Positions 7,945 through 55,028 of a stretch of 64,000 nucleotides of DNA are shown here, piece by piece. The DNA comes from Meiothermus sp. (lineage in GTDB: Bacteria; Deinococcota; Deinococci; Deinococcales; Thermaceae), in contig NZ_BPIM01000001.1 of assembly GCF_026004115.1 (NCBI RefSeq), forward strand, positions 1,759,501 to 1,823,500. The letters run 5' to 3'. A model generated the notes under the pieces. It did no database searches. It had not been told where the DNA came from and saw nothing but the letters and a program-made list of their open reading frames with translations. Positions within the stretch are counted from its first letter, which is position 1. The number at the start of each line of letters is the position of its first letter. The position numbers were made by a program, and so were the translations under genes.

Positions 7945-8140
7945 ATACCGTCAAAAGGACAGTTTACAAAACCAAAAACCCCAATGGTTTTCTTTTGAAT
8001 CCTAGAGCACACCCTATCCCTGTCGGATGGCGAAAAAAATCGTCTCCCTTTCCAAGGGGCGGTATCGTCCTTCGCTACGCGAGTAACCTCGGTCGGTTTA
8101 GTTCGCTACCCTTCGATAACGAATCAACCGAATCTGGTAT
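7945..8140 (+). repeat. Dispersed palindromic repeat, copy 1 (long form)
   Basis: Starts ATACCG and ends CGAATCTGGTAT, the mirror of the other copies' ends. It contains the shared order: left hairpin block (ACAGTTTACAAAACCAAAAA), TCCTAGAGCAC junction, then a G+C-rich module (CTGTCGGATGGCGA..., CCAAGGGGCGGTATCGTCC) also present in reversed form in copy 4, and finally a GGTCGGTTTAGTTCG/CGAATCAACC hairpin. Its left hairpin is eroded compared with copy 2. Together with the promoter below it fills most of the 443-base gap before dctP. No open reading frame of note. Confidence 0.85.
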
Positions 8141-11617: not shown

Positions 11618-11623
11618 GGAATA

Positions 11624-11751
11624 ATACCGGATTCAAAAAGACAGTTTACAAAACCAAAAAACACCAGAGGCTGTCTTTTTGAATCTTAGAGCACTCCCTT
11701 CGGTCGGGTTAATTCGTCACCCTTTGGTGACGAATTAACCGAATCTGGTAT
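11624..11751 (+). repeat. Dispersed palindromic repeat, copy 2 (short form, 128 bp)
   Basis: Begins ATACCGGATTC and ends GAATCTGGTAT, near-perfect terminal inverted repeats. Two hairpins lie inside: GATTCAAAAAGACAG pairs with CTGTCTTTTTGAATC, and GGTTAATTCGTCACC pairs with GGTGACGAATTAACC. The junction between them is TTAGAGCACTCCC. Both ends can be read as CC...GG flanked by TA, as for elements that duplicate a TA target. It overlaps the 3' end of the convergent quinone oxidoreductase gene and encodes that protein's last residues. Confidence 0.9.
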
Positions 11752-12705
11752 AAGCAGCACCTTGCCGGTGGTTTTGCGTCCTTGCAATGCGATGTGGGCC
11801 TGGGCCGCCTGGGTCAGGGGAAACTCTGCGCCGATACGAATTTTGAGTCTGCCCTCTAAAGCCCAGCGCATTACGTCACCAGCCCGCCACTCGAGCTCCT
11901 CGCGGGTTTGGGTGTAGTGCCAGAGGGAGGGCCGGGTAAGGAATAGGCCGCCCTTCTGGTTCAGGATTTGAGGGTTGAAGGGCGCCACCGGCCCGCTGCT
12001 CTGGCCGTACAGGGCCAACATGCCCCGAATCCGCAGGCTGTTCAGGCTACCCTCCCAGGTAGACTGCCCCACGCCGTCGTAGACCACATCCACGCCCTTT
12101 CCGCCGGTTATTTCGCGGGCCTTCTGGTCGAAACCCTCGTAGGGCAGGGCATAATCGGCACCGGCATCTTTAGCCAAAGCACGTTTTTCTTCGGTGGAAG
12201 CGGTAGAAATTACCGTAGCTCCGATCATCTTGGCCATCTGAATGAGAAGTAGCCCCACCCCGCCCGCACCCGCGTGGATCAGGCAAGTTTCACCCGCTTT
12301 GAGCGGATAGGTGCTATAGGCCAGGTAGTGGGCGGTCATGCCCTGGAGCATCCCGGCAACAGCCACTTTGGGATCCAAACCCACCGGTACTTTGACCAAC
12401 TTATCGGCAGGCACTAAGGCATACTCGGCATAACTGCCCTGAACATTGGAATAGACCACCACCTCGCCAGGGCGGATGCCTTCTACACCAGGCCCCACTG
12501 CTTCTACCACTCCGGCCCCTTCCTCGCCCACGGTGAAAGGGGTGGGGACAGCGTAGAGACCTGAGCGCTTGTAGGTGTCAATGAAGTTGACCCCAATGGC
12601 CTGAAGTCGTACCAGCGCCTGGCCCTCGCCAGGGGTAGGCGTGGGTATGTCCTCTAACTGCATGGCCTCGGGGCCGCCGGGCTGGTGAACGCGGATGGCT
12701 TTCAT
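11686..12705 (-). CDS. NADPH:quinone oxidoreductase, zinc-independent MDR family
   Basis: Reduces quinones or related enones with NADPH, cytoplasmic. IGVNFIDTYKRSGLY near residue 38 and VGEEGAGVVEAVGPGV are signature segments of the QOR1 group; LIHAGAGGVGLLLIQMAK at about 143-160 is the NADP-binding motif (AGGVG). No structural zinc Cys cluster is present. The conserved family end, GRKTTGKVLLIP, is followed by 19 extra residues (DSVNSSPKG... to PKGVL) encoded wholly by the dispersed repeat at 11624-11751, which also supplies the stop codon. The start ATG 12705 is nearly leaderless behind TATAAG. Confidence 0.9.
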   Translation of the reverse strand: MKAIRVHQPGGPEAMQLEDIPTPTPGEGQALVRLQAIGVNFIDTYKRSGLYAVPTPFTVGEEGAGVVEAVGPGVEGIRPGEVVVYSNVQGSYAEYALVPADKLVKVPVGLDPKVAVAGMLQGMTAHYLAYSTYPLKAGETCLIHAGAGGVGLLLIQMAKMIGATVISTASTEEKRALAKDAGADYALPYEGFDQKAREITGGKGVDVVYDGVGQSTWEGSLNSLRIRGMLALYGQSSGPVAPFNPQILNQKGGLFLTRPSLWHYTQTREELEWRAGDVMRWALEGRLKIRIGAEFPLTQAAQAHIALQGRKTTGKVLLIPDSVNSSPKGDELTRPKGVL

Positions 12706-46830: not shown

Positions 46831-49185
46831 CTATTCCTCCCTTCCAGCCGTGAGGCGGGCGATGTATTCCTGGAACCCTGCTTCGTCGCCCCGTACCAGG
46901 TAGGCCGCCTGGCGGCTCCAGGTGGGAATGCTGGGGGCGAAGCTTATGCCGGCGGCCTCGATGGCGGCGTGTAGCTGGCCCTCGGTGGCCGCTTCCAGGG
47001 CTTCGAAGGTAGTGATGCCGGCGGCTACCAGCGCATCGCGGATTTTGGGGCCAATGCCCTCGATGCGGGTCAGGTCGTCGGCCTTGCGGCGGGTACCTCC
47101 GGCGGTGGCGCGGCTGAGTTTGTAGACCCCGCGCACAAAGCGGCGGGCCTCCACAATCCATTCGTCAAACTCAAGATCTTTGCCAGTGACTTCACGCAGC
47201 CGTGCCTCGGGTGTGCTAGCCAGGTCTTCGAAGGTTTTGATGCCTGCTTCCCATAGCTTTTGCTGGTAGGTGTTGCCGATGCCCTCGATCACCCCCAGGG
47301 GGTCGTGGCCTTCGGGCACCACTTCGGCCCGGAAGGTGCGGCTCTGGGTGACGCGGTAGCCGATCACTTCCTTGGTTTGTCTGGGTTTGGCTTTGCGCGG
47401 TTTGGCAGAACGGGCGGGTGTTGGAGCGGCGGCGGCCCCAGTAGCTTCGGCCTCCGATACCCTGGTCTGCATGGCCGCGAGGTTGGTAGCCAGGGCATCG
47501 TAGTCGGCGGTGCGTTCCTGGGCTTTGACCAGCCTGGCCTCATAATCGGCGATGCGGGCTTGCAGGGCGGTGTAGTTGGCCCGCATCTGGTTTTGGTCTT
47601 CCTGGGCTTTTTTGAGACTTGCTTCGTAGTCGGAGATACGGGCCTGCAAGGCCAGGTAGTTGGCCTTGTACTGCTCCAGTTCGGCCTTACTGCTTTGGAC
47701 AGCCACCAGCTCCTTGCGCAAGCCCTCGACCTCTCCGGAAAACCAGTTGCGTTCTTCCTCGGCCCTGGCCAGCCGGGCGCGCAGGTCTGAGAGTTCACGG
47801 CGCACTGCTTCCAGATCCTGATAGGCGCCCTGGGCCTGGTTCAGGTCGGCCCTAAGCTTTTCGACCTCGGCCAGGAGCTTGTTGCGCTCGGCGATCACGT
47901 TGTTACTATCAGTGCTCAGGTTGTCCAGGCGCTTTTGCAGCCCCTCCACTTCGGCCCGCAGGTGGTCGCGTTCGCCCGCTACGGCTTCGATGCGCTTGCG
48001 CAGGGCCTCCAACTCGACCGCGTACTGGTTGCGTTCGTTATGGATGGCCACGATACGGGTCTCGAGCTCAGCAGGCTGCAGGTTGCCCAACCGGGCCCGA
48101 ATGGCCTCCAGAGCGCTCAGGCTGCCCTGCAAGCCCGATAGCTGGGTGCTGAGCCGGGCCGATTCTTGCCGCGCGTGGTCGCGCTCTTGCTCCAGGGCGT
48201 TCAGGCGCTTTTGCAGGCTCTGGAGTTCGCTGGATAGCTGGCCTTTTTCACCCTCGAGAGTCTGGATACGGGCCTCGTAGCGGGCCTGGATTTTTTGCTG
48301 GTCGGCCTCGAGGGTGGCGTAGCGGGCCTGCAAAGCGCTAAACTCGTTCTTGTAGCGCTCGATTTCAGCTTCCATGGCGGCCACTTTGCCCTGGTCGGCC
48401 TCGAGGCTCTGGATGCGATCCCGCAACGCCTGAAGCTCATTCAGAGCCACCTGATATTCGCCACGCAACCGGTTTAGTTCTGCCCTGGCGCCCTCGGCCT
48501 CTTTCTGAAGGGCAGCGAAGTGGGCCTCGAGTTCTTCAGGCTGCTTGCTACCGAAGCGCTGGCGTAAGCCCTCCCAAACGGCCATCAGTCCGTCCATGCC
48601 GGCTAGCTTGCCGCTCAGGTTAGCGGTTTCAGACTTCTGCGCGTCGCGATCCTGGCGCAGGGCTTCTACCTGACGGCTCAGCACCGCCATCTCGCCCTGG
48701 TAGCCCAGAATTTGGGCAGAAAGTCGATTGCGCTCGCCCTCGAGCTGCTCAAATCGGGCCTGTAGCCCACTGTACTCGGCCTGAAGCCTGTCCCGCTCGC
48801 CCTGAAGGGCGCCCAGGCGGGCTTGCAGGTTGGCAAGCTGGGTCTTGAGGTTCTCAAAATCCTTGAGTTGTCCTTCCAACCCCTGAATTTTGAGGGTGGC
48901 GGCATCCAGCTCTTTGCTCACTGTGGCGAAGCTAGCCTTCAGCGCCTCAAAATCCTTGAGCTGCCCCCGCAGCCCCGAGAGTTCCTGTTCAGCCTGCGCC
49001 AGTTTGGACTGGGTGGCCTTATAGCCGGTTAGATCGGCCTGAAGCCGACCCAGTTCGGCCTGAGCCTCGGTAAGCTGGTTTTGCAGCCGCAGGGTATTGC
49101 CTCGGAAAAGCCAGCTCAAAAGCCAGCCCAGGAGCCAGAAAATCAGGCCTCCCAAAAGAAAACTGCACCACTCAATCCATCCCAT
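46831..49185 (-). CDS. Membrane-anchored long coiled-coil protein with tandem HhH domains
   Basis: 784 aa. An N-terminal membrane helix (FLLGGLIFWLLGWLLSWLF) is followed by some 540 residues of almost uninterrupted heptad coiled coil with internal copies such as GLRGQLKDFEALK and GLEGQLKDFENLK. A basic linker (SAKPRKAKPRQTKEV) precedes two helix-hairpin-helix units: GVIEGIGNTYQQKLWEAGI and TRIEGIGPKIRDALVAAGI, each with TFE(D/A)L. HhH units of this form bind DNA or assemble proteins. The function is unknown. ATG 49185 follows GAGGAGGG. Confidence 0.8.
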   Translation of the reverse strand: MGWIEWCSFLLGGLIFWLLGWLLSWLFRGNTLRLQNQLTEAQAELGRLQADLTGYKATQSKLAQAEQELSGLRGQLKDFEALKASFATVSKELDAATLKIQGLEGQLKDFENLKTQLANLQARLGALQGERDRLQAEYSGLQARFEQLEGERNRLSAQILGYQGEMAVLSRQVEALRQDRDAQKSETANLSGKLAGMDGLMAVWEGLRQRFGSKQPEELEAHFAALQKEAEGARAELNRLRGEYQVALNELQALRDRIQSLEADQGKVAAMEAEIERYKNEFSALQARYATLEADQQKIQARYEARIQTLEGEKGQLSSELQSLQKRLNALEQERDHARQESARLSTQLSGLQGSLSALEAIRARLGNLQPAELETRIVAIHNERNQYAVELEALRKRIEAVAGERDHLRAEVEGLQKRLDNLSTDSNNVIAERNKLLAEVEKLRADLNQAQGAYQDLEAVRRELSDLRARLARAEEERNWFSGEVEGLRKELVAVQSSKAELEQYKANYLALQARISDYEASLKKAQEDQNQMRANYTALQARIADYEARLVKAQERTADYDALATNLAAMQTRVSEAEATGAAAAPTPARSAKPRKAKPRQTKEVIGYRVTQSRTFRAEVVPEGHDPLGVIEGIGNTYQQKLWEAGIKTFEDLASTPEARLREVTGKDLEFDEWIVEARRFVRGVYKLSRATAGGTRRKADDLTRIEGIGPKIRDALVAAGITTFEALEAATEGQLHAAIEAAGISFAPSIPTWSRQAAYLVRGDEAGFQEYIARLTAGREE

Positions 49186-49478
49186 GAACCCTCCTCGACG
49201 CACTGTTTTAGCAATACCGGAAAAGATGGGGAACCTACTAGCTAGTTTAACAAAACCAGGTGTAAAAAATGCAAAAAGTCTTGCAAAAATCCAGCGTGCA
49301 CTCTATCGCTTGATTTCAGTTGACCACACCTCGCAGACCGCATGTCTGGGAGAAGGTAGGCTTGTGCACCCCACCTTGACGGGATGATCGATCAGTGCGA
49401 GCTGTCCGGTAAAGCAATGGCCGGATTGGGCTGGTGTCTGTGCAAACCGCTTTCAGTTGTGGCGCTTTGGTAAGCAAG

Positions 49479-50834: not shown

Positions 50835-50851
50835 AGATGCCCTTGATTCTA

Positions 50852-50979
50852 ATACCAGATTCGGTTAGTTCGGCGCCGAAGGGTGACGAACTAACCCGAC
50901 CGAAGGGAGTGCTCTAGGATTCAAAAAGACAACCTATGGGTTTTTGGTTTTTTTGAACTGTCTTTTTTGAATCCGGTAT
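50852..50979 (-). repeat. Dispersed palindromic repeat, copy 3 (short form, 128 bp)
   Basis: Inverted relative to copy 2 and of exactly the same length. Starts ATACCAGATTCGGTTAGTTC and ends TTTTTGAATCCGGTAT. The dyad GGTTAGTTCG.../CGAACTAACC forms hairpin one, and GATTCAAAAAGACA pairs with TGTCTTTTTTGAATC as hairpin two. The junction block is the reverse complement of the copy 2 AGAGCACTCCCTTCGGTCGG block. It lies directly upstream of the aminotransferase. Confidence 0.9.
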
Positions 50980-51117
50980 AACTCCTGGTGGAATGCGGTG
51001 GAGGGGAGACGGCTGGCTCGAGCTGGCCTTCTCCCCGTATTGACCTGCGTCATGCAACCGTAATGCTGCTATCAGGGCCATTGCCACCGGGTCACAATCC
51101 CGAAAGTATCGCATAGT

Positions 51118-53522: not shown

Positions 53523-53553
53523 AATTCCCTACGGGCAAGAGATTGAACTGTAG

Positions 53554-54727
53554 TGAAAAGTATCAAAAAAAGGGCATAAAGTCAGGCTGAAAGGGCAGGG
53601 AGTACGGTCAGTAGCTGGGATTTGAGGGTTTTTGCGGCATTGTGCTGTGCTGTGCGCCAAGAAAGATCTGGATGTAGTTGTTTTTGCTGTCGAATAAGGT
53701 GTAGGGCCTCGATGGCAAGGTCAGCATGTTTGAGTTGAGCAGCATAGGAACGAGAGAGGCATTTGGATAAACCCAGGTTCTGTTTGAGCAGGCGATGCAC
53801 CCGCTCCAGATCCCAACGAGCTTTCCAGGCGGCAAGGACTTCTTGAATGCCTGCATCCAGGGTGGAGAAGAGGGCCATCAGCTTGAAACCTGCTGGCTGG
53901 GGTAGCCAAATCAGCAGCATATCCAGTCGACCCACATCGGCCAAGGTGATCTTGATGCGTTTGACATACCAGCCAAAACGCTTGTAATAGCGGGCTTTAC
54001 CGGGTGGATAGTGCTCACCCAGTTCTCGGATAGATCGTTGCTTTCCTGCATGTTCGACCTTTTGATTCAGTCTGGCCCGAGCTACGAAAGGTATGTTGTG
54101 CTGGTAGAGCTTGGCGAGGTAAGCCTTACCCGCAAACTGGTTGTCGAACACCACGCCTGCGAGGCTATAACCATTACCATTCTTGCGGATGGCCTCGACT
54201 ACCTGCCACATCGCCTCACCAGGGGTTCGGTACGGGTATACCTCCGAACTCATGGGCTTGGTGGGGAAACCCTCCAGACTCAATGGGTAGGGAAGTTTCC
54301 CATATCCAACCAGCCCACATGACAGCAGGTTATGTCCCCACACCGGAGCTTTATCACTGCTGGAGTACACCCGATCCACGCCCTCGATCCAACATCCTTG
54401 ATGGGCTACGGGAACCAAGTCCACCCCCAGGTACATCCCCTTGGGGGCTGCTTCCAACCGTCGCTCTCGACTGGACTGGTGGGGTTTGGCTTCTTGTCGT
54501 AGCAGGCGACAGCTATAGCTGGGGCTATACCCTATCGTTCCACTGGCTGCTATCGCGCTGGGGGTTTTATGGGCTGATTGCAGCAAGCCCAACACATAGC
54601 CTTGTTCCCATCGTTGCAAACGCGATAAACTACACTGTACGTCTTCAAACATCGTACAGAAGTACCGTGCTGACCGGATCCTTTGCAAGGACTCTCGGCA
54701 CGGTTCTTCTTTATGACGACCTTTTCA
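53554..54727 (-). mobile_element. Insertion sequence with DDE transposase (ends approximate)
   Basis: A single transposase gene with G+C content and codon use visibly less extreme than the neighbours. The only matching inverted ends I can find are TGAAAAG at 53554-53560 and CTTTTCA at 54721-54727, giving 1,174 bp, a plausible size. An alternative right end is at 54767, next to repeat copy 4 (GAAACATCAAAACGCCC on the minus strand against GAAAAGTATCAAAAAAAGGGC at the left). No target duplication is visible. Ends need comparison with other copies. Confidence 0.45.
53582..54652 (-). CDS. IS4/IS701-superfamily DDE transposase
   Basis: About 356 aa. The probable catalytic triad is Asp78 (YLGVDLVP), Asp170 (GVVFDNQFAGKAYL) and Glu283 in RWDLERVHRLLKQNLGL, the Y/W-x-x-E-x6-K-like signature of IS4-type and IS701-type enzymes. 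The reading frame is intact, so the element may still move. ATG 54652 is preferred; TTG 54688 would extend it by 12 residues without support. It lies opposite to the PaaX-like gene and right of a hairpin. Confidence 0.85.
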   Translation of the reverse strand: MFEDVQCSLSRLQRWEQGYVLGLLQSAHKTPSAIAASGTIGYSPSYSCRLLRQEAKPHQSSRERRLEAAPKGMYLGVDLVPVAHQGCWIEGVDRVYSSSDKAPVWGHNLLSCGLVGYGKLPYPLSLEGFPTKPMSSEVYPYRTPGEAMWQVVEAIRKNGNGYSLAGVVFDNQFAGKAYLAKLYQHNIPFVARARLNQKVEHAGKQRSIRELGEHYPPGKARYYKRFGWYVKRIKITLADVGRLDMLLIWLPQPAGFKLMALFSTLDAGIQEVLAAWKARWDLERVHRLLKQNLGLSKCLSRSYAAQLKHADLAIEALHLIRQQKQLHPDLSWRTAQHNAAKTLKSQLLTVLPALSA

Positions 54728-54767
54728 GGGGTGGGTCAATCTCTTGCTACGGGCGTTTTGATGTTTC

Positions 54768-55001
54768 ATACCAGATTCGGTTATTTCGGCGCCGGATGGC
54801 GGCGAACTAACAGGGCCGAAGTTATCCGCGTAGCGGAGGGCGATGCCGCCCCTTGGAAGTTATCCGCGTAGCGGAGGGCGTAAGCCCCTTGGAAGGGAGA
54901 CGCTTTCTTCGCCGACCGACAGGGAGGGGTGTGCTCTAGGATTCAAAAAGATAGTCTCTGGTGGTCTTTGGTTTGGATGATTATCTTTTTGAATCCGGTA
55001 T
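54768..55001 (-). repeat. Dispersed palindromic repeat, copy 4 (long form, 234 bp)
   Basis: Starts ATACCAGATTCGG and ends GAATCCGGTAT. Same orientation as copy 3. Between the GGTTATTTCGGCGCC dyad and the CTCTAGGATTC junction it has a module absent from copies 2 and 3: two tandem units, each beginning GAAGTTATCCGCGTAGCGGA (54818-54855 and 54856-54891), then CTTGGAAGGGAGACG and CTTCGCCGACCGACAGGG. The reverse complement of that module is in copy 1. It lies immediately to the right of the insertion sequence. Confidence 0.88.
54818..54891. repeat. Tandem duplication inside repeat copy 4
   Basis: Unit one is 38 bases, unit two 36 bases; they share 25 leading bases exactly (GAAGTTATCCGCGTAGCGGA plus GGGCG) and end CCCCTTG. 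Only one unit is present in copy 1, so this is a recent duplication. Confidence 0.8.
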
Positions 55002-55028
55002 CATCTCGTATTTCAGTGATGGAGATAC

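Follow-up and report, generated by a model that had tools for sequence, protein, structure and literature searches.

A mobile family of palindromic MITEs in Meiothermus flanked by 3-bp TNA target duplications

IS630-type MITEs such as RUP and the Correia elements duplicate TA on insertion. Duplication of a 3-bp TNA characterizes both the IS1031 group of IS5 and the eukaryotic PIF/Harbinger elements, and IS1031 elements begin with GAG. Rickettsia palindromic elements and the QMITEs of C. burnetii are palindromic mobile elements able to extend or enter coding sequences. The BrickBuilt MITE of Porphyromonas gingivalis has a 23-bp unit and about 19 copies, with mostly degenerate ends and inconsistent duplications; the IS5 family was named as its likely source, judged from its ends (PMC4596501).

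The window, the whole 64,000-nucleotide stretch of a Meiothermus sp. genome analyzed here, holds four copies of a palindromic repeat (Table 1) that are members of a genome-wide family of non-autonomous DNA transposons (MITEs), a real mobile element. A first-pass annotation of the window had described these four copies as MITE-like, with fixed ends, two internal palindromes and occurrence in both orientations, and this description stands: on re-inspection each runs from ATACC(R) to (Y)GGTAT, all four share two palindromes with TAGAGCAC between them, and two copies lie each way. The two copies reported as exactly 128 bp do have that length when measured from ATACC to GGTAT, and come to 126 bp once the duplicated TNA is removed.

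Table 1. Coordinates of the four MITE copies and their parts in the window.
Feature	Position	Strand	Remark
11625 copy: 126-bp short form, hairpin A first	11625..11750	+	lineage-specific; every relative that has both flanks lacks it
Left target duplication TAA of 11625 copy	11622..11624	.	relative G003 has one TAA here
Right target duplication TAA of 11625 copy	11751..11753	.	
Hairpin A of 11625 copy (GGATTCAAAAAGACAG... / ...CTGTCTTTTTGAATC)	11629..11686	+	fold z -7.3 as RNA, z -7.3 as DNA
Conserved junction TAGAGCAC of 11625 copy	11687..11694	+	alignment
Hairpin B of 11625 copy (GGTTAATTCGTCACC / GGTGACGAATTAACC)	11707..11740	+	copies differ by many double changes
50853 copy: 126-bp short form	50853..50978	-	single TAA at empty site in G003
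Left target duplication TAA of 50853 copy	50850..50852	.	
Right target duplication TAA of 50853 copy	50979..50981	.	
54769 copy: 232-bp long form containing 38-bp tandem units	54769..55000	-	empty site, single TCA in G003
Left target duplication TCA of 54769 copy	54766..54768	.	
Right target duplication TCA of 54769 copy	55001..55003	.	
38-bp minisatellite, 2.1 units, within 54769 copy	54818..54895	-	
7946 copy: older and decayed, 194 bp, left end damaged	7946..8139	+	without intact target duplication

Aligned copies have, outside their common end, a fixed T at -3 (99%) and a fixed A at -1 (97%) with one variable base between them, and the positions outside this TNA are without comparable conservation. 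A set of 112 distinct copies, drawn from several species, has TNA as the left flank in 108 cases and as the right flank in 103, and in 97 the three flanking bases are the same on both sides. The middle base agrees in 96 of the 101 copies with TNA on both sides, against 28 expected from composition, and in the sample from G012 the duplication is present in 19/20. Because the TNA on one side of a copy matches that on the other and the bases farther out lack comparable conservation, the element proper runs TACCRGATTC…GAATCYGGTA, with a core of 124-127 bp, and what is duplicated is the 3-bp TNA. The first-pass annotation had tentatively taken the outer TA as the target duplication, a proposal that fails: the TA adjoining CC is invariant in intact copies and belongs to the element itself, the duplicated unit is TNA, and empty sites keep one TNA.

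These empty sites are direct evidence of mobility. Relatives lack three of the four window copies at the corresponding place. The flanks of the 11625 copy are uninterrupted in many relatives, the closest of which, G003 (92-94% identical), reads GAATAAGCAG with one TAA; G003 also lacks the 50853 and 54769 copies (Table 1). The 7946 copy is likewise not in G003, in surroundings too diverged for an empty-site judgement. It is an old copy, with its left end decayed (TACCGTCAAAAGG) and its duplication no longer intact (flanking triplets GGA/TTA). In all, about a dozen empty sites were found, in both directions: five distinct Meiothermus sp. insertions, two of them window copies, are empty elsewhere, and the Meiothermus sp. 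genome in turn has, beyond the window, empty sites for eight insertions carried by other genomes. At most empty sites the projected flanks overlap by exactly 3 bp. The suspicion of mobility in the earlier annotation has thus passed the comparison with relatives. G001, G012 and G003 contain many near-identical copies, a sign of recent bursts.

The family extends over the complete genome and well beyond it. Exact matches to the end ATACCRGATTC number 299 in the 3.35-Mb genome, far more than chance would give, since a reversed control pattern has one. In a BLAST-type search at least 40 full-length relatives were scored (the best 40 of 211 first-look candidates), with E down to about 1e-32. The sampled stretches, window included, contain 43 paired copies in 864 kb, about 50 per Mb, an extrapolation from which suggests about 150 or more copies in the whole genome. 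Both plasmids of the Meiothermus sp. genome also hold copies, as do plasmids of Allomeiothermus silvanus and M. taiwanensis. Of 18 genomes in the genus, at least 15 contain the family, in numbers that differ greatly between genomes; named relatives with the element are Meiothermus hypogaeus, M. taiwanensis, M. granaticius, Calidithermus chliarophilus and C. roseus. Seven viral-contig matches to TACCGGATTCAAAAAGA were judged to be chance, and no copy was found in phage records.

The short form (122-128 bp) consists of hairpin A, then TAGAGCAC, then hairpin B. Longer forms of about 158, 164, 195, 234, 272 and 316 bp carry extra blocks between TAGAGCAC and hairpin B, namely a 34/35-bp block and a 38-bp tandem unit, CTTCCAAGGGGCGGTATCGCCCTCCGCTACGCGGATAA, in 0-5 copies; in M. 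hypogaeus the longer forms carry an alternative 38/39-bp block. The longer window copies are thus size classes built of 34- to 38-bp modules, not anomalies. The blocks do not stop transposition, because several longer forms are themselves multicopy. The family as a whole spans 122-316 bp, is without a transposase gene and has 10-bp terminal inverted repeats, TACCRGATTC; together with the matching TNA on both sides and the insertion polymorphism, these are the features of a MITE. Two smaller structures were also seen, both very short palindromes with family ends on each side and each a possible minimal or precursor form: a solo hairpin B (G000:C1:1993549-1993602) and a 35-bp pair of left-type ends (G002:C69:24145-24179).

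Insertions are mostly intergenic. With the elements removed and genes taken as ORFs of at least 100 codons, 30/40 insertions lie outside genes, as against 83% of random TNA sites inside them; convergent gene pairs are not preferred beyond what other intergenic sites show. The 50853 copy separates an aminotransferase gene from a divergent MatE gene and lies just upstream of the start of the former. The 11625 copy entered the final codons of a zinc-binding dehydrogenase gene (window 11686-12705), whose product ends in GKVLLIP-stop in relatives and in GKVLLIPDSVNSSPKGDELTRPKGVL-stop here; the 19 added residues are read from the MITE and make a C terminus unlike that of all relatives checked. A separate set of repeats at window 48298-48976 consists of diverged coding repeats with 93 bp spacing inside the ORF 46831-49203, apparently encoding a repetitive protein.

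Taken as a whole, we are highly confident in a model of a non-autonomous MITE family that inserts at TNA with duplication, relies on a DDE transposase supplied in trans, has a dispensable modular interior and keeps its palindromes as DNA. What the sequences themselves show are the ends, the duplication, the empty sites and the orphan insertions in relatives. The transposase would recognize both ends and excise or copy the element, and 3-bp-staggered cuts at TNA, mostly in intergenic DNA, would receive it, as the length of the duplication and established DDE chemistry suggest. The interior is dispensable and modular, the 34/35-bp block, the 38-bp unit (0-5) and the alternative 38/39-bp block being gained or lost with mobility retained, and the palindromes may be kept as a DNA hairpin or cruciform with templated correction.

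We give about even chances to the enzyme being of the IS5 superfamily (IS1031 group or related PIF/Harbinger type). The family has the 3-bp TNA duplication of the IS1031 group, and its ends are TACCRGATTC in all intact copies rather than starting with GAG. Relative G003 carries IS1031-type IS5 elements (L285, L294) with GAGACTGTC ends and TNA duplications (TAA seen), one of them inside a MITE copy. Because such an IS exists in a relative and a related one lies inside a MITE, an enzyme that targets TNA is available in the genus. A variant of the model would have the enzyme come from a known IS5/IS1031-type element of this sort, with ends that have diverged from those of the MITE. This is unlikely, since the GAGACTGTC ends have no similarity to TACCRGATTC and cross-mobilization with such different ends would be unusual, however well the TAA duplication and the nested copy would fit.

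Searches for an autonomous partner took several routes. Scanning 3.1 Mb for TNA-TACC...GGTA-TNA pairs 0.5-3 kb apart gave no autonomous element, and an end-pattern search of ten low-copy genomes gave no pair at that spacing. Altogether the end-pattern searches took in most genomes of the genus and yielded no parent element. No parent element with MITE ends was found at DDE_Tnp_1 (PF01609) loci of the Meiothermus sp. and four relatives, and none near the DDE_Tnp_4 genes examined in the genus. Ends with a non-MITE continuation (TNATACCRGATTCY) led only to decayed MITEs and to other sequence without a MITE interior, and no partner was found on either plasmid of the Meiothermus sp. genome. In this genome the search covered 0.95 Mb of sampled stretches and the remainder mostly by pattern or family, through which a partner could escape.

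Two apparent autonomous elements were rejected. The first (L097, 1166 bp, TAA/TAA; G000:C1 about 2.994 Mb) proved to be an IS of IS5 type that has ends GAGGCTGTCGTAAAA and a transposase in two frames, and that is abutted by a short MITE and a long one. The second (L100, 1343 bp, TAA/TAA) is the IS701-like IS inside a MITE. A 1116-bp end pair at C1:2133896 likewise turned out to be a MITE, which a different IS, one with CCTTCGTGTGCTAC ends, has interrupted. The window itself contains an IS701-like IS (53536-54747) with ends CAAGAGATTGA, a 7-bp duplication CTACGGG and an ORF of 368 aa on the minus strand (53582-54688), 21 bp from the 54769 copy; five full-length copies of equal score exist in the Meiothermus sp. 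genome, one being L100.

The element folds far better than shuffles, RNA and DNA alike (z about -7.3), and across 53 diverse short copies 98.7% of cells are paired. Nine pairs have changed on both sides, giving 63 double-change cells against 15 in shuffles and 0/500 shuffles as high, in a control in which relatedness among copies remains. Almost every arm variant is a Watson-Crick doublet (UA:32/CG:20 and AU:37/GC:11/GU:1 are examples) and G·U intermediates are rare, which is not the trace that slow selection on an RNA usually leaves. Hairpin B has six-base loops that are found either way round within the same stem (CCTTTG 11/CAAAGG 5; CGTTCG 4/CGAACG 3; CATTCG 13/CGAATG 1). Because the arms change together almost without G·U intermediates and the loop is found in both orientations, the palindromes look to be upheld at the DNA level, through templated correction or the inversion of hairpins, and not mainly for an RNA.

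The stable fold and the mostly intergenic placement would also suit a fixed regulatory or structural RNA element (terminator, leader or sRNA) conserved in place. We consider this very improbable: the empty sites in relatives mean that the copies are not conserved in place, no Rfam 15 covariance model matches, no terminator-like site was found in the 50.7-51.2 kb region, and neither the near absence of G-U intermediates nor a convergent-gene bias no higher than at other intergenic sites fits it. Scarcely any credence is due to REP/REPIN-type palindromes moved via single-stranded DNA by a RAYT (Y1 transposase). The pairing of palindromes, the placement between genes, the strong folding of single-stranded DNA and the double changes kept as DNA pairs speak for such elements, but REPINs are not known to make a target duplication on insertion, and the TNA duplicated in 97/112 copies, the fixed inverted ends and the empty sites argue against them.

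Mobilization by an IS630/Tc1-mariner-type enzyme with TA duplication, as the first-pass annotation proposed, recalls known IS630 MITEs in high copy number and palindromes and would explain why TA flanks CC(R)GATTC in every intact copy, but is excluded for practical purposes because the duplication is the 3-bp TNA, with a matching variable middle base and with the invariant TA inside the element, empty sites hold one TNA and not TA alone, and the only IS630-type (DDE_3) gene of the Meiothermus sp. genome is broken and without matching ends. The remark that the window has no transposase of this type was correct, the IS701-like IS found there being unrelated.

The MITE family of Meiothermus and its relatives appears to be previously undescribed, very abundant and recently active; in the literature within our reach, no paper pairs Meiothermus with miniature inverted-repeat elements. 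A bolder reading, which we regard as rather improbable in its entirety, is of an orphan family jumping across the genus without a recognizable autonomous parent, served by an undescribed TNA-targeting transposase with TACC ends, and with DNA hairpins in which, as the element transposes or is replicated, palindromic arms are actively repaired and loops inverted. If it is true, the palindromes belong to the mobility mechanism and are not relics. In thermophiles the MITE family gives rise to intergenic variation, to insertions in promoter regions and to gene tails, and it hosts nested ISs. Its optional 38-bp tandem unit is a potential strain-typing marker, and its scarce G·U intermediates and inverted loops make a good natural data set on the maintenance of DNA palindromes.

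Compared with described systems, the Meiothermus MITE is short, palindromic, intergenic and of high copy number like the IS630-type MITEs, which differ in duplicating TA where TNA was found here on testing. With the Rickettsia elements and QMITEs the comparison is limited to one coding extension checked, the 19 residues at the end of the zinc-binding dehydrogenase, and we claim no general in-frame adaptation. The IS1031 group, PIF/Harbinger and Tourist-like MITEs have in common with it the 3-bp T-N-A duplication and inverted ends, whereas IS1031 begins with GAG and the Meiothermus MITE with TACC. BrickBuilt is alike in being gene-less and intergenic, with short inverted ends, an internal minisatellite of variable number and a limited host range (PMC4596501). 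The ends of the two differ (GAGACCTTCGCA in BrickBuilt, TACCRGATTC here), the comparison being otherwise by description. Unlike BrickBuilt, the Meiothermus MITE has an optional 38-bp unit, about 150 or more copies, intact ends and a constant 3-bp TNA duplication with empty sites.
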